Assembly (NCBI RefSeq): GCF_009755665.1
Contig: NZ_CP046622.1
Span: forward strand, 2,418,001-2,482,000
Source: Variovorax paradoxus
Lineage (GTDB): Bacteria; Pseudomonadota; Gammaproteobacteria; Burkholderiales; Burkholderiaceae_C
DNA length: 64,000 nt
Reading direction: 5' to 3'
This document shows positions 1,732-12,635 of this stretch, piece by piece. The position numbers and the translations under genes are program-made. The notes under the pieces are model-generated. The model did no database searches and was not told where the DNA came from. It saw only the letters and a list, made by a program, of their open reading frames with translations. Positions within the stretch are counted from its first letter, which is position 1, and the number at the start of each line of letters is the position of its first letter.

Positions 1732-2364
1732 TCAGGCCTTGGCTGCGGGCGCCGCCTGCCCGAGCGCGATCTTGAGCAGATCGGCCACGGTATTGGCGTT
1801 GAGCTTTTCCATGATGTTGGCGCGGTGCGCCTCGACCGTCTTGATGCTGATGCCGAGGTCGTCGGCAATCTGCTTGTTCAGGCGGCCGGCGACGATGCGC
1901 TCGAGCACCTGGGCTTCGCGGCCGGTGAGCTTGGAAAGCAGTGCATCGCGGCTGGCCGACTGCTGGTGCTGGGTGAACGCGCCGCGTGCGTGCTCGAGCA
2001 TGCGCTCGACCAGCGTGACGAGCTCTTCGTCGTTGAAAGGCTTCTGGATGAAATCCATGGCGCCTTTCTTCATGCTGTCGACCGCCATCGGCACGTCGCC
2101 ATGGCCGGTGATCACCACGATGGGCAGCGGGGAGCGCCGCTCGATCAGCCGGTCTTGCAGTTCGAGCCCGGTCATGCCGGCCATGCGGATGTCGACGATC
2201 AGACAGGCGACTTCGCGCGGGTCGTATCGGGAAAGAAAAGACTCGGCTGAATCGAAGCAGCGAACCCTGTAGTCCTTGCCCTCGAGCAGCCATTGCAGCG
2301 AATCTCGTACGGCCTCGTCGTCGTCGACGACATAGACAGTGCCCTTCTTCGGAATCAAACTCAT
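1732..2364 (-). CDS. FixJ/NarL-family two-component response regulator
   Basis: 210-residue DNA-binding response regulator. The receiver domain (about residues 8-122) has the acidic pocket VVDDD near the N terminus, the phospho-acceptor Asp58 in the LIVDIR segment, and the conserved Lys in FIQKPF. A LuxR-type helix-turn-helix (about residues 142-200) carries the typical [12 protein letters not shown] and [16 protein letters not shown] segments. The start ATG overlaps the stop of the histidine kinase by four bases (ATGA), so the pair is translationally coupled and surely cognate. It lies divergent from the pyruvate dehydrogenase operon, which makes aceE a candidate target, although the sequence does not prove this. 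FixJ/TtrR-like architecture is certain; the stimulus is unknown. Confidence 0.93.
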
Positions 2365-4901
2365 GCAGGTACCTTTGCCTCGTCGCTTGCTACGGAACTG
2401 GGAGCGTCCAACACCGGAATCCAGAAGGAAAAGCGGCATCCGATCACATCCGGGCCATTGTAGATGTTCTCCGCCTGCATCCGTCCGCGGTGCGACTCGA
2501 CGATGGTGCGGCACAGATTCAGCCCGATACCCATGCCTTCGGGCTTGGTGGAGAAGAAGGCCTCGTAGAGCCGGTCCATCACTTCGGGCGCCAGGCCCTT
2601 GCCGGTGTCCTGCACCGAGAACTCGATGGCGTTGTGGCCTTCGATCACCTTGGGCAGCACGCGCAACTCCACGCTCCGTCGGGCGAGCGGGCGCTCGGCA
2701 ATGTCGATGGCCTCGGCGGCGTTCTTCAGCAGATTGACCATGACCTGCTCGATCAGGATGGGATCCACGCGCACCACCGGCAGCCGCGCCGCCACGTAGT
2801 GGTTGAGCCGCACATTGCGCCGCCGCAGCTCGATGCCCGCCAGTTCGACCGCCTCGCTCACCATGGTGGCAACGTCGGCGGGCGTGCGGTTGGGTTCGCT
2901 GCGTTTTACGAAGGAGCGGATGCGCTGGATGATCTGGCCCGCGCGCTGCGCCTGCTTCGAGGTCTTTTCGAGTGCCGCGAGCAGCGCCTCGGTGTCGATC
3001 GACTGCCCCTTGATGCGGGACATCATCCCGTTGCAGTAGTTGGTGATGGCCGTGAGCGGCTGGTTGAGCTCGTGCGCCACGCTGGAGGCCATTTCGCCCA
3101 TCGTGATCAGGCGGCTGGCGGCCTGGGCGCGGTCGGCCTGCGCGGCGGCCTGTTCCTCGGCATCGCGCCGCGGCGTGATGTCGGTGGCAATTACCAGCTG
3201 GGCGAGCCGGCCGTCGACCCAGGTGAGATAGCGCGATCGCACTTCGAGCCACTTGCCCAGGTGCGGCACGAAGATCTCGTTGTTGGCGGTCTGGGCGGCC
3301 GTCAGGGTGTCGATCGGCAGGCCCGCGTAGGGGTCGACGTCGTCCAGGCCCTCGTCGTGCGCATTGGAGGCCGGCACACCCGCCTGCGCCACCATGCCCA
3401 GGTGCCCCACGGTGTCGGAACCGAACCAGAGCCGGTACAGCTTATTCGCGAACAGCAGTTCTTCGCTGCCGATGGGGGCCACCGACACCGCGGCGTCCAG
3501 CGCCTCCAGCACCGTGGTGAAGCGCTCGTACGAAGCCGACAGCTGCTCGCGGATGCGCGTGGGCTCCGTGATGTCGGTCATCGACGTCATCCAGCCCGTC
3601 TGGTGCCCGCGCGCATCGATCAGCGGCGACACATACAGCCGCGCATTGAACACGCTGCCGTTCTTTCGCTTTACGCGCACCTGGAAGCCGCCCGGCAGCG
3701 CGCGCCCGTGCAGCTCTTCCTCGAGCCGCTCGTTCATGACTTCGCGGTCCGATTCCAGCCAGTAGGGGAAGGGCGGGGTCTGGCCCACCAGTTCGGCTTC
3801 GCTCCATCCCGTCATTGCGCAGAAAGCGGCGTTCACGTAGGTGATGCGCCCCTGCAGGTCGAGCACGCGCATGCCGGTGAGCATGGAGTTTTCCATCGCG
3901 CGCCGGAAGTTGGTTTCGGCAACCAGCCGCTGCTGCGCCTGCTGGCGCCGCCGGGTGTGCCGCCAGGTACCGATCAGCATCCAGCTGGTGAGCACGCTGA
4001 GCGCGCAAACCAGCCAGAACAAGCCGTTGCCGACCACCCCCTGCGAGGTGCGATAGGCCTGGGCCCGCAGCACCAGCGCATTGCCGACGGGCGACACCGG
4101 TACTTCGTATTCGTTGGTTCTTTCGGACCAGGGCAGCAGGCGCGTGCCGCCTTCCCTCGGGCTCACGGTGTTGCCCGCAATCGGATTGCCCTTGGCGTCG
4201 AGCAGCGACACCGCATAGCGCGCCTGCACCTCCGATGGCATGCCGTAGCGCAGCAGGCCGTCGATCGAAAACTCGCCCAGCACCACGCCCGCGAACAGGC
4301 CCTGGTCGAAAAGCGGGATGTGCAGCTGCAGCATGGCCGTGGGGTCGCCGCCCGCCATGGGCTGGGAGAACACCGGTTGGCGCAGTTCGCGCGCCAGCGC
4401 GTAGTTGCTCTCGATATCGCCAGGCCGCAGCACGTCGCCGATGAGGTGCTGCTGCGCGGGGTGCACGCTCGGCGCGGAATAACCGGCCTTGAAACGGCGG
4501 CGGTCGTCGATCCAGGTGACCGTTTGCAGTTCAGGGAACTGGCTCACCAGCGATTCCGCTCGGCTCGCGAATTCGACCGGATCGATCTCGCGGTTCGAGG
4601 CGTCGCGCGCAATGCGCATCAGCTGTTCCTGGCGCTCCAGCAGGCGCAGGCGCATGCGCTGCTGCGCGTACTCAACGTCCCGCCGTACCGATTCCTGCTC
4701 GCGCTCGACTTCTTCGGTGCGCAAATACCAGAACGCCGAAACGATGGCCGCAAGGAACAGCAGCACCGCCGCAATGGGCGCGAGCATGGCGACGGCGTCC
4801 TGCAGCACCGGCGTTTGCCGGCGCCACCAGCGGCGCCACCAGGAAAGAGGTGACGCGGTCACGGCGCTGCGGGCCACCGCCAGCGGAGAGGAAAGAGGCA
4901 T
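2361..4901 (-). CDS. Membrane PAS-domain sensor histidine kinase
   Basis: 846-residue sensor kinase. A first membrane helix lies at about residues 38-60 and a second at about 293-312, enclosing a periplasmic domain of some 230 residues that probably is the input module. Two PAS-type regions follow (about 330-450 and 458-575), then a HisKA domain with phospho-acceptor His610 in [17 protein letters not shown], and a HATPase domain with the N box [12 protein letters not shown]1 box DTGKGL and G2 box GMGIGLNL. The C-terminal layout is that of the FixL/DctB group. It overlaps the downstream response regulator by four bases. The gene starts 215 bases from the divergently transcribed aceE, so the intergenic region must hold both promoters. 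Its ligand cannot be read from sequence. Confidence 0.93.
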
Positions 4902-4999
4902 CTTGCGAGTTTAGGGGATGCTCCCCCACGAAGTGCGCCAAAGGCCCGGTGCCATTGGTCCGGCGCGGTTGCGGCCAACACAATTTGGATCACGAATAT

Positions 5000-5019
5000 C
5001 ACATTAAGAAATCAATGTG
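5000..5019. promoter_or_regulatory. Inverted repeat upstream of aceE (candidate operator)
   Basis: CACATT and AATGTG form a perfect 6-base inverted repeat separated by 8 bases, a geometry fitting a dimeric DNA-binding protein. It lies in the 215-base region between the divergent histidine kinase and aceE genes, about 100 bases before the aceE start. Function is inferred only from symmetry and position. Confidence 0.4.
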
Positions 5020-5030
5020 CGCCATTTGAA

Positions 5031-5046
5031 ATAGAAGCATTTCTAT
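5031..5046. promoter_or_regulatory. Second inverted repeat upstream of aceE (candidate operator)
   Basis: ATAGAA-GCAT-TTCTAT, a perfect 6-base inverted repeat with a 4-base centre, 11 bases downstream of the first repeat and 70 bases before the aceE start. The local sequence is distinctly more AT-rich than the surrounding genes. It does not resemble the PdhR box of enterobacteria. I could not identify a convincing -35/-10 pair. Confidence 0.4.
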
Positions 5047-5116
5047 GCGAAACTCGCCCGCGTTTATCGAAGACCGCACTTAAATTACAGCCACAGCCCC
5101 AATAGGAGAGACAAGC

Positions 5117-7831
5117 ATGTCGGCAAATCCCGAGAACCTGTTCGGCTCGGCCGCGAACGACGCGGACGCCCAGGAGACCCGTGAATGGATGGATGCACTG
5201 TCCTCCGTTATTCAGAGCGAGGGGCCTGAGCGGGCTCACTTCCTTCTAGAGCAGTTGCTCGAGCATGCGCGGCAGCACAGCATCGACAAGCCGTTCTCGG
5301 CCAACACTGCCTACGTCAACACCCTGGAACCCGATCAGGAAGAGCGTTGCCCCGGCAATCTCGAGATCGAAGAGCGCCTGCGCGCCTACATGCGATGGAA
5401 CGCCATGGCCATGGTGGTCAAGGCCAACCGCCATCATCCGCCCGAAGGCGGCGACCTGGGCGGCCACATCGGCTCCTTTGCTTCGCTGGCCAACATGTTC
5501 GGCGCCGGCTTCAACCATTTCTGGCACGCTGAAAGCGAAAACCACGGCGGCGACTGCCTCTACATCCAGGGCCACGTGTCGCCCGGCATCTATGCCCGCG
5601 CCTACCTGGAAGGCCGCCTGACCGAAGAGCAGTTGCTCAACTTCCGCCAGGAAGTCGACGGCAAGGGCCTGTCGAGCTACCCGCATCCGAAGCTGATGCC
5701 CGAGTTCTGGCAGTTCCCGACGGTGTCGATGGGCCTCGGCCCGTTGATGGCCATCTACCAGGCCCGCTTCCTCAAGTACTTGCACGCCCGCGGCATTGCC
5801 AACACCGAGAACCGCAAGGTATGGGTGTTCTGCGGTGACGGCGAAATGGACGAGGTCGAGTCGATGGGCGCCATCGGCCTAGCGGCACGCGAGAAGCTCG
5901 ACAACCTGATCTTCGTGATCAACTGCAACCTGCAGCGCCTGGATGGCCCGGTGCGCGGCAACGGCAAGATCATCCAGGAGCTCGAAGGCGAATTCCGCGG
6001 TTCGGGCTGGAACGTCATCAAGCTGATCTGGGGCAGCAACTGGGATCCGCTCCTGGCGCGCGACAAGGAAGGTGCGCTGCGCAAGATCATGATGGAAACC
6101 AACGACGGCGACTACCAGGCCTTCAAGGCCAACGACGGTGCCTACGTTCGCAAGCATTTCTTCGGACGCGACCCGCGCACGCTCGAAATGGTTTCCAAGA
6201 TGAGCGACGACGACATCTGGCAGCTGCGCCGCGGCGGCCACGATTCGCAGAAGGTCTACGCCGCGTTCGATGCGGCCGTGAAGCACGAAGGCCAGCCCAC
6301 GGTGCTCCTGATCAAGACGGTCAAGGGCTTTGGCATGGGCAAGATCGGCGAGGGCAAGAACAACGTGCACCAGACCAAGAAGCTCAGCGACGAGGACATC
6401 ATGGCCTTCCGCGACCGCTTCAACATTCCGATTCCGGACAGCAAGATCGCCGACCTGCCGTTCTACAAGCCGGCCGACGACACGCCGGAAATGAAGTACC
6501 TGCACGAGCGCCGCAAGGCACTGGGCGGCTACTTGCCGCATCGCCGCACCAAGGCCGACGAGAGCTTTACCGTGCCGTCGCTCGACACCTTCAAGTCGGT
6601 GATGGAGCCGACCGCCGAAGGCCGCGAGATTTCCACCACGCAGGCTTACGTGCGCTTCCTCACGCAACTGCTGCGCGACAAGGCGCTGGGCCCGCGCGTC
6701 GTTCCCATTCTTGTGGACGAAGCGCGCACCTTCGGCATGGAAGGGTTGTTCCGCCAGATCGGCATCTACAACCCCGCAGGCCAGCAGTACACCCCGGTCG
6801 ACAAGGATCAGGTCATGTACTACAAGGAAGACAAGGCCGGTCAGATCCTGCAGGAAGGCATCAACGAAGCAGGCGGCATGTCGAGCTGGATTGCTGCGGC
6901 CACCTCGTACAGCACCAACAACCGCATCATGGTGCCGTTCTACGTGTACTACTCCATGTTCGGTTTCCAGCGCATCGGCGACCTGGCCTGGGCGGCGGGC
7001 GACATGCAGGCGCGCGGCTTCCTGCTTGGCGGCACCTCGGGGCGCACCACGCTCAACGGCGAAGGCCTGCAGCACGAAGACGGCCACAGCCATATCCTGG
7101 CCAACACCATTCCCAACTGCGTGAGCTACGACCCGACCTTTGCGCACGAAGTGGGCGTGATCCTGCACCACGGCCTGAAGCGCATGGTCGAGAAGCAGGA
7201 CAACGTCTACTACTACCTGACACTGCTTAATGAGAACTACGCGATGCCCGGCCTGCAGCCCGGCACCGAAGAGCAGATCATCAAGGGCATGTACCTGTCG
7301 AAGCAGGGCCCCGCACTCAAGGCCAAGGCACCCACGGTGCAACTGCTGGGCAGCGGCACCATCCTGCGTGAAAGCTTTGCCGCGCAAGAGCTGCTCGAAA
7401 AGGATTGGGGCGTGTCCGCCTCGGTGTGGAGCTGCCCGAGCTTCAACGAGCTGACGCGCGACGGCCAGGACGCCGACCGCTGGAACCTGCTGCATCCGGA
7501 CCAGACGCCGCGCGTGCCTTTCGTGGCCGAGCAACTCGCGCCTACCGCCGGCCCGGTGATCGCGTCGACCGACTACATGAAGGCCTACGCGGAGCAGATC
7601 CGTCCCTTCATTCCGAAGGGCCGCAATTACAAGGTGCTGGGCACCGACGGCTTCGGCCGCAGCGACTTCCGCAACAAGCTGCGCGAGCACTTCGAGATCA
7701 ACCGCCATTACATCGTGGTGGCCGCGCTCAAGGCGTTGAGCGAAGATGGCACCGTGCCCGTAGCCAAGGTGGTGGAAGCGATCAAGAAGTACGGCATCAA
7801 TGTCGACAAGGTCAACCCGCTTTACGCCTGA
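5117..7831 (+). CDS. aceE: Pyruvate dehydrogenase E1 component, homodimeric type
   Basis: 904-residue thiamine-diphosphate enzyme that decarboxylates pyruvate and acetylates the lipoyl groups of E2 in the cytoplasmic pyruvate dehydrogenase complex. Length and sequence match the single-chain AceE of proteobacteria (E. coli about 887). The ThDP/Mg motif GDGEMDE begins near residue 240 and is closed by [11 protein letters not shown] about 28 residues later. The [20 protein letters not shown] N-terminal segment (here [16 protein letters not shown]) is also typical. A good ribosome-binding site AGGAGAG ends 6 bases before the ATG. It is the first gene of aceE-aceF-BPH-lpdA, with 49 bases to aceF. 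Two inverted repeats upstream and a divergent two-component system suggest transcriptional control. Confidence 0.98.
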
Positions 7832-7880
7832 ACATCAACAACCAACGAACGAACGGCGCCTCACGGCGGGAGACAACGAT

Positions 7881-9551
7881 ATGGCAGCAGTGGAAGTGAA
7901 GGTGCCGGACATCGGCGATTTCGATGAAGTCGCGGTGATCGAGGTGCTTGTGAAGGTGGGCGACACGGTCAAGGCCGAGCAGTCGCTCATCACCGTCGAA
8001 TCGGACAAGGCCTCGATGGAAATTCCGTCGTCGACCGCCGGTGTGGTGAAGGAAATCAAGGTCGAAGTCGGCGGCAAGGTGAAAGAGGGCTCAGTGGTCC
8101 TCGTGCTCGAGGCGGAAGGGGCTGCCGCGGCACCGGCGCCTGCAGCGGCTCCGGCTCCTGCGGCCGCCGCCCCGGCGCCCGCAGCCGCGGCCCCCGCACC
8201 GGCAGCAACGCCGGCGGCTTCCGGACCCATCGAGATCAAGGTGCCCGACATCGGCGATTTCAAGGATGTCGCGGTCATCGAGTTGCTGGTGAAACCCGGC
8301 GACACGATCGCGGCCGACCAGTCGCTGATCACTGTCGAATCGGACAAGGCTTCGATGGAAATTCCGTCGTCGGCGGCGGGCGTGCTCAAGGAGCTCAAGG
8401 TCAAGGTGGGCGATACGGTCAACATCGGCGACCTGATTGCCGTGCTTGAAGGCGCAGCAGGTGCTGCGGCGCCTGCGCCTGCGCAGGCTGCTGCAGCCGC
8501 GCCGGCAGCTGCGACCGCCACTGCGCCAGCTCCGGTTGCCGCTCCGCCGGCGGCCGCTGCAACTCCGTCGGCTGCTGCCGCACCGCACGAACCCACAGTT
8601 GCACCCACCGGCAAGCTGCCGCATGCGTCCCCCTCGGTGCGCAAGTTCGCCCGCGAACTCGGCGTGCCACTCGAAGAAGTCAAGGGTTCCGGTCCCAAGG
8701 GCCGCATCACTCAGGAAGACGTCCAGAGCTTCACCAAGGCCGTAATGAGCGGCCAAGCGAGCACCAAGGCATCCGCAGCCAAGGCGCCAGCCGGCGGTGG
8801 CGGCGCAGATGGTGCGGCATTGGGCCTCATTCCCTGGCCGAAGGTCGACTTCGCGAAATTCGGCGCGGTCGAGCGCAAGGACCTGTCGCGCATCAAGAAG
8901 CTCAGCGGTGCCAACCTGCACCGCAACTGGGTGATGATCCCGCACGTCACCAACAACGACGAAGCCGACATCACCGAGCTGGAGGCCTTCCGCGTCTCCA
9001 CCAACAAGGAAAACGAAAAGTCTGGCATCAAGGTCACGATGCTGGCCTTCGTGATCAAGGCGGTGGTTGCGGCGCTCAAGAAGTTTCCTGACTTCAACGC
9101 CAGCCTCGACGGCGACCAGCTCGTCTACAAGCAGTACTACAACATCGGCTTTGCGGCCGACACGCCCAACGGGCTCGTGGTGCCGGTGCTGAAGGACGCG
9201 GACAAGAAGGGCATCCTGCAGATCAGCGCGGAGATGGGCGAACTCGCTAAGAAAGCGCGCGACGGCAAGCTCGGCTCGGCCGACATGCAGGGCGGCTGCT
9301 TCTCGATCAGCTCCCTCGGCGGCATCGGCGGCACGCATTTCACGCCCATCATCAACGCCCCCGAAGTGGCCATCCTCGGCCTCTCCAAGGGCCAGATGAA
9401 GCCGGTGTGGGACGGCAAGCAGTTTGTGCCGCGCCTGACGCTGCCGCTGTCGCTGTCCTACGACCACCGCGTGATCGATGGTGCCCTGGCTGCGCGCTTC
9501 AACGCCTACCTGGGCCAGGTGCTCGCGGATTACCGTCGAATCCTGTTATGA
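7881..9551 (+). CDS. aceF: Dihydrolipoyllysine acetyltransferase (E2 of pyruvate dehydrogenase)
   Basis: 556-residue core of the pyruvate dehydrogenase complex; it carries acetyl groups on lipoyl-lysine and transfers them to CoA. Domains in order: lipoyl domain 1 (residues 3-77, lipoyl-Lys43 in ESDKASMEI), Ala/Pro linker, lipoyl domain 2 (117-190, Lys156), a long Ala/Pro linker, the peripheral subunit-binding domain (about 247-284), another flexible linker, and the catalytic domain ending with His529 and Asp533 in SYDHRVIDG. The start [14 protein letters not shown] is preceded by a CGGGAGA Shine-Dalgarno sequence. E. coli AceF has three lipoyl domains; two is normal in many betaproteobacteria. 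The stop overlaps the next gene by ATGA. The two lipoyl domains are nearly repeated at DNA level. Confidence 0.98.
7974..8033 (+). repeat. Lipoyl-domain coding repeat, copy 1 (aceF)
   Basis: Sixty bases encoding the lipoyl-lysine hairpin ([20 protein letters not shown]). It differs from copy 2 at four positions and from copy 3 in lpdA at three positions by direct comparison. All but one difference are silent. Confidence 0.9.
8313..8372 (+). repeat. Lipoyl-domain coding repeat, copy 2 (aceF)
   Basis: Second copy of the 60-base lipoyl-lysine hairpin coding segment, within lipoyl domain 2 of aceF; 56 of 60 bases match copy 1. The one amino-acid change from copy 1 is Glu to Asp. Confidence 0.9.
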
Positions 9552-10141
9552 CCACCGTAGTGGCCGTCCGCAAAGGCGGCCAGGTCACGATGGCGGCGGA
9601 TTCCCTGGTGACCTTCGGCGACACGCGGCTTTCGCACCGCGCCGAGGCGAACCAGAAGATCTTCACCATCGACGATGCGGCGGGGCAGAGCCTCTTTGCC
9701 GTGGCCGGGGCCGCCGCGCACTTTCTGGTGCTGCAGCATGCATTGGCCGCGCAGCCGCGCGAGGCGTTGCTGTTCGGCAGCAAGCACGAGATCTTCCGCA
9801 CCTTCACGCTGCTGCACCCGGTGCTGAAAGACTCGTTCTTCATGCAGACCAAGGAAGACGAGCATGAGCCCTACGAGTCGAGCCAGTTCACGATGCTGAT
9901 GGCCAACCAGAGCGGCATCTACGGCATCTACAGCTACCGCGAGGTGTTCGAGTTCAAGCAGTTCTGGGCCATTGGCTCGGGGCGCAGCTTTGCACTTGGC
10001 GCCATGCACGCGGCGTACGACATGAAGTCGCGCACCTCGCGCGACGTGGCGGAGGCGGGGATTGCCGCCGCCTGCGAATTCGATCGCAATTCGGCCCCAC
10101 CGGTCGACGTTCTCACACTCAAACTGAAAGTGTCCAAATGA
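9548..10141 (+). CDS. Proteasome-like Ntn hydrolase (HslV / BPH type) inside the pyruvate dehydrogenase operon
   Basis: 197-residue protein related to HslV and proteasome beta subunits. After Met removal it would begin Thr-Thr, the Ntn nucleophile; the mature protein then has Asp17 (AADS) at the canonical proteasomal position, a Lys at mature position 37 in ANQKIF near the HslV Lys33 site, and a late [15 protein letters not shown] segment matching the HslV IGSGG region. This fits BPH, the betaproteobacterial proteasome homologue known to form self-assembled double rings, better than HslV proper, because it is longer and has no hslU beside it. Such genes are often misnamed MFS transporter; there is no membrane helix here. 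It overlaps aceF and lpdA by ATGA on both sides, so its synthesis is tied to the complex. Function and substrate are unknown. Confidence 0.82.
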
Positions 10142-11961
10142 GCGAACAACAAATCAAGGTGCCGGACATCGGCGACTTCGACGAAGTCGCGGTCATCGAG
10201 GTGCTGGTCAACGTCGGCGACACGGTCAAGGCCGAGCAGTCGCTGATCACGGTCGAATCGGACAAGGCCTCGATGGAAATTCCATCGTCGGCTGCCGGCG
10301 TGGTGAAGTCGCTCGCAGTCAAGGTGGGTGACAAGGTCAAGGAAGGCTCCGTGGTGTTGACGCTGGAGGTGGACGGTGCCGCAGCGCCCGCGCCCGCAGC
10401 AGCGGCCCCAGCGCCAGCCGCTGCGGCGCCCGCGCCCAAGGCGGCTCCTGCGCCCGCGCCGGCCGCAGCGCCCGTTGCTTCCACCTACGGCGGCAAGGTC
10501 GATGTCGAGTGCGACGTCGTCGTGCTCGGCGCCGGCCCTGGCGGGTACTCGGCCGCATTCCGCGCTGCCGATCTCGGCTTGAAGGTGGTGCTGATCGAGC
10601 GCTACGCCACGCTTGGGGGCGTTTGCCTCAACGTGGGCTGCATTCCGTCGAAGGCGCTGCTGCACGTGGCGTCGGTCATGGACGAGGTCAAGCACTTTGC
10701 CGACCTGGGCGTGAGCTTTGCAGCCCCCACGGTCGACCGCGCCAAGCTGCTCGGCCACAAGAACAAGGTGGTGGGCAAGCTCACCGGCGGCCTCACGGCC
10801 ATGGCCAAGATGCGCAAGGTGACGGTGCTGCGCGGCGTCGGCAACTTCATCGACCCCTACCACCTGGAAGTGGACGAGACGTCCGGCACCAGCTGGGACA
10901 CCACCGGCAAGAAGCAGACCGTCAAGTTCCGCAACGCGATCATTGCGGCCGGGTCGCAGGCCGTGAGCCTGCCGTTCATGCCGAAGAACGATCCGCGCGT
11001 GGTCGACTCCACCGGCGCGCTCGAGATGGGCACCGATCCCAAGCGCATGCTGATCCTCGGCGGCGGCATCATCGGTCTGGAGATGGGCACGGTGTATTCC
11101 ACGCTGGGCGCGCGCCTCGACGTGGTCGAAATGCTCGACGGCCTGATGCAGGGCGCCGACCGCGACCTGGTCAAGGTGTGGCAGAAGATGAACGCGCCGC
11201 GCTTCGACAACATCATGCTCAAGACCAAGACGGTCGGCGCCGAAGCCACGAAGGAGGGCATCAAGGTCACCTTCGAGGGCGAGAACGCGCCGAAGGAGCC
11301 GCAGGTGTACGACCTGGTGCTGCAGGCCGTTGGCCGCAGCCCGAACGGCAAGAAGATCGGGGCAGAGAAAGCCGGCGTGACGGTGAGCGACCGCGGCTTC
11401 ATTCCGGTCGACATCCAGATGCGCACCAACGTGCCTCATATCTTCGCCATCGGCGACATCGTGGGCCAGCCCATGCTGGCGCACAAGGCGGTGCATGAAG
11501 CACACGTGGCGGCCGAGGTGATTGCCGGCGAGCAGAAGGGCGACAAGGAGCTTTCGAGCGCCGCCTTCAACGCCCGGGTGATCCCGAGCGTGGCCTACAC
11601 CGACCCCGAGGTGGCATGGGTCGGCCTCACCGAAGACCAGGCCAAGGCGGAAGGCATCAAGATCAAGAAGGGCCACTTCCCGTGGAGCGCTTCGGGCCGT
11701 GCCATTGCCAACGGCCGCGACGAAGGCTTCACCAAGCTGCTGTTCGACGCCGAGACGCACCGCATTCTCGGCGGCGGCATCGTCGGCACGCACGCGGGTG
11801 ACATGCTCGGCGAGATCGCGCTGGCCATTGAAATGGGCGCCGACGAGATCGACATCGGCAAGACCATTCACCCCCACCCGACGCTGGGCGAAAGCATCGG
11901 CATGGCGGCCGAAGTGGCGCACGGTACCTGTACTGACCTGCCGCCGGCAAAGAAGGCCTGA
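10138..11961 (+). CDS. lpdA: Dihydrolipoyl dehydrogenase (E3) with N-terminal lipoyl domain
   Basis: 607-residue FAD enzyme that reoxidises dihydrolipoyl groups with NAD in the pyruvate dehydrogenase complex. Residues 1-78 form a lipoyl domain with lipoyl-Lys43 in ESDKASMEI; an Ala/Pro linker follows; the flavin domain starts with [15 protein letters not shown]; the redox-active disulfide is Cys163/Cys168 in [13 protein letters not shown]; an NAD-binding [12 protein letters not shown] segment and a C-terminal HPHPTLGES catalytic His/Glu region are present. The extra lipoyl domain explains its length against the usual 470-480. It overlaps the preceding proteasome-like gene by ATGA. A second, plain E3 for 2-oxoglutarate dehydrogenase lies at 21969-23399, so this copy is probably dedicated to pyruvate dehydrogenase. 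Confidence 0.97.
10231..10290 (+). repeat. Lipoyl-domain coding repeat, copy 3 (lpdA)
   Basis: Third copy of the lipoyl-lysine hairpin coding segment, 57 of 60 bases identical to copy 1 in aceF and encoding the identical 20 residues, although it sits in a different gene about 2.2 kb away. Confidence 0.9.
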
Positions 11962-11999
11962 GCGGCCGTTGAGCCGCTCCGGGCAATCGGAGCGGCCAT

Positions 12000-12029
12000 A
12001 AAAAAATCCCGCCGCGGCGGGATTTTTTT
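12000..12029. terminator. Bidirectional intrinsic terminator between lpdA and the NlpC/P60 gene
   Basis: A GC-rich palindrome (TCCCGCC / GGCGGGA with a two-base centre) flanked by seven A on one side and seven T on the other, so it can terminate both converging transcripts. A second stem (GCCGCTCC / GGAGCGGC, 11973-11996) lies just upstream. Confidence 0.93.
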
Positions 12030-12050
12030 ATGGCTTGAAGGGCGGACGGA

Positions 12051-12635
12051 TCAGTCGCCGGAACGGGTTGCGGCTGTGGCCGCGGTCTTGACCTCGTCGT
12101 TGGGCGCGCCGCCCAGCACGCGGCGGGCTCCGTCGAAGCGGCGGCTCCAGTAGCTGCCGTTCATGTCTTCCACCCGCACTTGGGCGCCGGTGCGCGGCGA
12201 ATGGATGAACTTGCCTTCACCGACATAGATGCCGACATGGCTGAAGGCGCGGCGCATGGTGTTGAAGAAAACGAGATCGCCCGGCTTGAGTTGGCTGCGG
12301 TCGATTTTTTCCGTGGCCGCCGCTTGTTCCTCGGCACGGCGGGGCAGCAAATGGCCGACCGTCTGGTTGTACATGGCACGAACGAAGCCGCTGCAATCGA
12401 AGCCCGACTCCGCCGTATTGCCGCCGCGGCGATAGGGAACGCCAAGGAAGCCGATGGCGGTCACTACCAGGTCGGAAGTCCGTTCTGTGACTGTTTGGCG
12501 AACCTGCTGGAGTTGCCCGATCAAGCCCTTGTCGGCAAGGAGGCGGGCCAGTTCGTCATCGGTTCGGTCCTGTTGAGGAGCGGCCTGGACGGCGACGGCA
12601 AACAGGAGGGAAGCGGGTAGGACGAAAAAACGCAT
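12051..12635 (-). CDS. Secreted NlpC/P60 family peptidoglycan endopeptidase
   Basis: 194-residue exported cysteine peptidase likely to cut peptidoglycan cross-peptides. A signal peptide is visible (hydrophobic residues about 3-18, cleavage after VQA). The NlpC/P60 domain shows catalytic Cys81 in GFDCSGFVRAMY, His133 in FSHVGIYVG and third polar residue His145 in FIHSPR. It ends with a short Thr/Ala-rich tail. It is monocistronic, converging on the pyruvate dehydrogenase operon over a shared terminator. The precise bond cut cannot be told; Spr/MepS-like DD-endopeptidases are the closest well-known relatives. Confidence 0.93.
   Translation of the reverse strand: MRFFVLPASLLFAVAVQAAPQQDRTDDELARLLADKGLIGQLQQVRQTVTERTSDLVVTAIGFLGVPYRRGGNTAESGFDCSGFVRAMYNQTVGHLLPRRAEEQAAATEKIDRSQLKPGDLVFFNTMRRAFSHVGIYVGEGKFIHSPRTGAQVRVEDMNGSYWSRRFDGARRVLGGAPNDEVKTAATAATRSGD

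Follow-up and report, generated by a model that had tools for sequence, protein, structure and literature searches.

The pyruvate dehydrogenase operon and the gene inside it

The window, by which we mean the whole 64,000-nucleotide stretch of Variovorax paradoxus DNA analysed here (contig NZ_CP046622.1), contains a pyruvate dehydrogenase (PDH) operon on the forward strand, to which all window positions refer unless stated otherwise. The aceE gene (5117..7831) codes for the pyruvate dehydrogenase E1 component of the homodimeric type, with 1427 bits to TIGR00759 (cut-off 860). The aceF gene (7800..9551, mechanical ORF limits) codes for the E2 acetyltransferase with two lipoyl domains; it scores 758 bits with TIGR01348 (cut-off 552) and matches the lipoyl family (Pfam: PF00364) in two stretches. 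The lpdA gene (10138..11961) codes for the E3 dihydrolipoyl dehydrogenase (TIGR01350, 478 bits) and carries an N-terminal lipoyl domain (PF00364 at residues 5-76). Judged by the NCBIfam models, these are the predicted E1, E2 and E3 genes of a PDH complex with homodimeric E1. Between aceF and lpdA lies the gene of a proteasome-like Ntn hydrolase of 197 amino acids, BPH (9548..10141), which was identified by its sequence, by profile and structure matches and by a structural model.

The BPH gene overlaps both of its neighbours by an ATGA, as the earlier note had described: the aceF stop at 9551 overlaps the BPH start at 9548 (9548..9551), and the BPH stop at 10141 overlaps the lpdA start at 10138 (10138..10141). 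We can also confirm that no ATPase partner is adjacent, as the direct neighbours are aceF and lpdA and no AAA+ ATPase was found among the neighbours scanned. Rfam gave no match over positions 4800-12100, and a scan over 4800-12200 found no promoter-like site (1.0 expected) and six terminator-like sites (6.1 expected). Divergently upstream of aceE, a PAS-domain sensor histidine kinase is encoded on the reverse strand (2361-4901).

A proteasome-family protein closest to characterised BPHs

The BPH frame matches the proteasome family (Pfam: PF00227) with 45 bits (cut-off 22.4). Among structures, the BPH of PDB entry 5ovu is matched at an E-value of 6.7e-59 and 5ovs at 1.8e-31, while HslV follows at 1.3e-5 or weaker, so that the characterised BPHs rank above HslV as the closest sequence relatives of the product of 9548-10141. 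Membership in the Ntn/proteasome family, as the earlier note proposed, is therefore well above chance, and its identification as BPH is correct. The nearest named relatives are all from Variovorax, with 94-100% identity. The protein is under purifying selection, with a median dN/dS of 0.127 (53 comparisons of the named loci with locus L172), and PADLOC found no match to defence families.

BPH was reportedly first described in 2008. It is a known, HslV-related member of the proteasome family. In the available parts of PMC5777263, three prevailing operon settings are given for BPH genes, namely argG, the PDH operon (in Cupriavidus metallidurans) and hsp33, so BPH in a PDH operon was already in print. 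The C. metallidurans protein (Rmet_1198; PDB: 5ovu) is from another species and likewise encoded in a PDH operon, whereas the gene of the Thiobacillus denitrificans BPH (PDB: 5ovs, 5ovt), with 37% identity to the window BPH, shares an operon with argG and not with PDH genes (PMC5777263, same parts). HslV (ClpQ) shares 19-24% identity with the window BPH among the matches listed, and the window protein stays below the NCBIfam HslV cut-offs (41 vs 137 bits and 39 vs 157.75 bits). According to the available text of PMC5777263, HslU is the partner of HslV, whose pore loop is short; the window BPH, in contrast, has a long acidic loop, and its gene is not beside hslU. In the accessible excerpts of PMC8665760, BPH is grouped with HslV-like homologues, and it is stated that no contexts hinting at a function were found for the new homologues. 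Later than that paper (2021), the literature covered, mostly from non-subscription journals, held only two papers with single mentions of BPH (PMC8138137, PMC6213913).

Active site and pore loop

The reading frame starts with Met-Thr-Thr and, counting the Met as 0, has an Asp at 17 and AIGSGR at residues 140-145. We compared these positions across 177 BPHs. Thr1 (codon 9551..9553), the predicted nucleophile once the Met is removed, is modified by epoxomicin in a published BPH; 149 of the 177 have Thr here and the other 28 have Ser. Asp17 (9599..9601) is conserved in 175, Ser143 of the IGSG segment (9977..9979) in 159, and both Lys36 (9656..9658) and Gly53 (9707..9709) in all 177. Lys36 is taken as the equivalent of Lys37 of the T. 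denitrificans BPH and of proteasome Lys33, and Gly53, by analogy with the published Gly-50, as the probable oxyanion-hole glycine. The window protein thus shows the hallmark of BPHs, a Thr (or Ser) directly after the Met with no propeptide, together with the active-site residues Asp17, Lys and Ser.

According to a published rule, Ser1 marks BPHs outside Betaproteobacteria. Apparent exceptions are L141, which belongs to the window's order and has Ser1, and five loci of other orders with Thr1 (L026, L027, L029, L030, L170). A further Ser1 BPH (L226), with 39% identity, comes from a contig labelled as a Chloroflexi MAG.

The long acidic pore loop lies between H2 and S7, at model residues 101-112 between a helix (79-98) and a strand (115-120). 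Its segment TKEDEHEPY (9848..9874) has low confidence in the monomer model (pLDDT < 50 at residues 101-109). The mean charge of the loop is net acidic in all six context groups of the 177 BPHs.

In the available parts of PMC5777263, BPHs form double rings of 14 subunits and their Thr1 binds epoxomicin, but two purified BPHs were inactive on the substrates tried, even with Thr1 exposed. Because of this inactivity, the label peptidase, which the earlier note had used, rests on the fold, the residues and inhibitor binding, and the note is to be corrected on this point.

Genomic settings of BPH across relatives

We searched 150 genomes of the window's family, 299 of its order and 276 of its class. 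In the family sample BPH is present in 37 genomes, while an AceE homologue (E-value 0) is present in all 150. In all 37 the BPH gene shares its strand with aceF and lpdA and sits between them, and the same location is found in eight genomes of other families, so the position is not unique to one strain. Neither of the two outcomes that the earlier note named as refuting, a single-strain location or a protein outside the Ntn/proteasome family, therefore applies. At the named PDH loci, aceF precedes and lpdA follows BPH in 53 of 54, the remaining one being cut by a contig end.

The tight double-ATGA coupling is mainly a Variovorax trait. It occurs in 44 of the 54 named loci, mostly from Variovorax, but among the 45 PDH loci from whole-genome samples it is seen in four, including the window and a genus mate. 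Across the latter 45 loci the distances range from -4 to 168 bp between aceF and BPH and from -4 to 426 bp between BPH and lpdA. With so few ATGA pairs and such wide gaps elsewhere, tight coupling is no condition for the PDH linkage. At L189, where the contig ends 179 bases past BPH, the apparent BPH-lpdA gap of -2255 is impossible, the match being to the lipoyl part of aceF.

BPH was found in 107 of the 299 genomes of the order sample, with PDH genes in 12, hslO in 45, hslR in 12, argG and/or yajQ in 27 and other neighbours in 11. A context label is given here when the 1.5 or 3 kb fetched per side (less at contig ends) contains a member of the neighbour cluster, which is not always next to BPH. 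Cluster representatives were assigned to families with NCBIfam or Pfam, and the hslR label is based on a match below the cut-off (93 vs 148 bits).

The class sample gave matches in 40 of 276 genomes. Besides the window's own genome, 31 were fetched, and eight with short or weak matches were left out (G167, G160, G042, G134, G150, G245, G222 and G207). Among these 31 loci, all from outside the window's order, 23 show a further setting with the riboflavin genes ribD and/or ribE, and the other eight lie elsewhere. All 23 BPHs in this setting (L002-L013, L015-L025) have a Ser nucleophile, and nrdR lies within many of the fetched stretches. The words riboflavin, ribD and ribE are absent from the text of PMC5777263.

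Other neighbours were found in 20 of the 177 rows (11 from the order sample, eight from the class sample and L226), and were inspected in eight of these (L026-L030, L113, L170, L171); the neighbours of L170 and L171 gave no match. In one genome (G122, L026), rtcB and prfH, the gene for peptide chain release factor H, are located upstream of BPH. The rtcB-prfH pair is linked to ribosome repair.

Origin of the linkage and absences of BPH

On the BPH tree of 177 rows, the 50 PDH-linked rows need a single change (SH-aLRT 97), and all six context labels together need 13 changes compared with 105.5 in shuffles; the tree comes from a quick search without bootstrap and has weak support at 62 of its 171 inner branches, and thinning had removed 49 of the 54 named PDH loci before it was built. 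The PDH linkage of BPH therefore looks like a single event. No row with another context lies among the PDH-linked rows, so a move away from the junction is not seen.

All 113 family genomes without a BPH match have an AceE homologue. We fetched 60 of their operons, of which 58 were readable (L241 lies at a contig end and L265 has no usable lpdA match). Of these, 56 have -4 to 162 bp between aceF and lpdA. The two others have wider separations (389 and 1101 bp), and there other frames occupy the junction at which relatives have BPH (L255 and L285, with frames of 294 and 123 amino acids). No remnant of BPH was found at E-values up to 1 in the 60 fetched stretches, one of which was shortened by a contig end.

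On the LpdA tree (103 rows), the presence or absence of BPH requires no fewer than 19 changes, with seven or more on starred branches; this count is blind to gain versus loss, and the tree is a single-gene stand-in for the species tree from a quick search without bootstrap. Loss is the simpler reading, since PDH-linked BPHs exist in other families and the linkage forms one branch of the BPH tree. Across the 37 carriers, BPH distances correlate with those of LpdA (Spearman 0.51) and AceF (0.33), and AceF with LpdA (0.43), each correlation exceeding all 1000 permutations. This is expected from vertical inheritance and is also compatible with co-evolution.

BPH and HslU

HslU scores above its family cut-off in 130 of the 150 family genomes. 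In one of the remaining 20 the HslU gene is divided between two contigs; the other 19 genomes have no HslU, and six of these carry BPH. HslU is thus missing from six of the 37 genomes with BPH and from 13 of the 113 without it, which shows no association between the two (Fisher p 0.57), and BPH therefore neither tracks nor replaces HslU in this sample. The genome of the window has its own HslU match over the cut-off at C1:929794-931113, about 1.5 Mb from BPH.

Discussion

A proteasome-family protein with conserved active-site residues and under purifying selection is located between aceF and lpdA, in a position with one origin on the BPH tree, and is recurrently absent from genomes that keep the PDH operon. 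This pattern suggests that BPH is a gene neighbour that is inherited and often lacking, and not a working component of PDH. We consider it reasonably probable, on the whole, that BPH is a self-compartmentalising hydrolase without a dedicated ATPase, whose PDH site is ancestral and serves expression, with no role in PDH itself. The protein would be a homo-oligomeric, Thr-dependent Ntn hydrolase in which removal of the initiator Met exposes Thr1 as the nucleophile, assisted by Lys36 and Asp17; by homology to the crystallised BPHs, it may assemble into a double ring of 14 subunits whose pore loop is acidic. Most likely it acts without a dedicated ATPase, and its substrates would be a limited range of polypeptides that are small or unfolded beforehand, perhaps damaged by stress. 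The position between aceF and lpdA would go back to a single ancestral insertion, which may have given constitutive co-expression with a housekeeping operon, and BPH would be neither a subunit nor a dedicated protease of the PDH complex. One observation sits less easily with this reading, namely that BPH is not seen to leave the PDH junction, which a functional tie would predict as well.

The earlier note had left open whether BPH acts on the dehydrogenase complex or uses the operon for steady expression. If BPH were a peptidase dedicated to quality control or processing of the complex, it might for example clear damaged or unassembled E2 or E3 chains, and the strict position between the E2 and E3 genes in every family carrier agrees with this, as does the ATGA on both sides in Variovorax and its near kin. 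However, 113 of 150 family genomes have the AceE homologue and no BPH match, the linkage arose once, BPHs of other lineages lie near unrelated genes, and C. metallidurans pull-downs contained no PDH subunits, even with a cross-linker, as described in the available parts of PMC5777263. We therefore regard such a peptidase as very unlikely; action on the complex is left unsupported, and steady expression is the better fit. A variant in which BPH was captured in one lineage as an optional PDH quality-control peptidase, with contacts too transient for a pull-down, we hold to be highly improbable; if true, it would explain why BPH, though lost many times, was not seen to move from the aceF-lpdA junction.

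The inertness of the published BPHs on the substrates tried despite an exposed Thr1 could also mean that they depend on a cofactor or unfoldase whose gene lies elsewhere. Of the 37 family carriers 31 have HslU, but the other six do without it and HslU does not track BPH. The available parts of PMC5777263 report no partner ATPase and no HslU in a pull-down with nucleotide, and no AAA+ ATPase appeared among the identified recurring neighbour clusters (part of the clusters were submitted, and two gave no match). Such a dependence seems unlikely to us. The same inertness would fit a specific transferase or ligase, for which the proteasome relative connectase is a precedent (PMC8665760, in the excerpts available). 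Connectase, however, is monomeric according to these excerpts, in contrast to the closed double ring of BPH, and the accessible text of PMC5777263 describes for BPH an S1 pocket that is hydrophobic and epoxomicin binding like that of the proteasome, so there is only a slim chance that BPH is an enzyme of this kind.

For BPH, a proteasome-family protein that has been crystallised, the operon settings provide some of the few clues to a role. Because the PDH setting arose once and BPH is often missing where the operon is kept, the PDH hint loses most of its weight, and a dedicated PDH role of BPH has little support. The search for BPH substrates is thereby pointed away from the PDH complex, and the survey yields natural pairs of close relatives with and without BPH for comparison.
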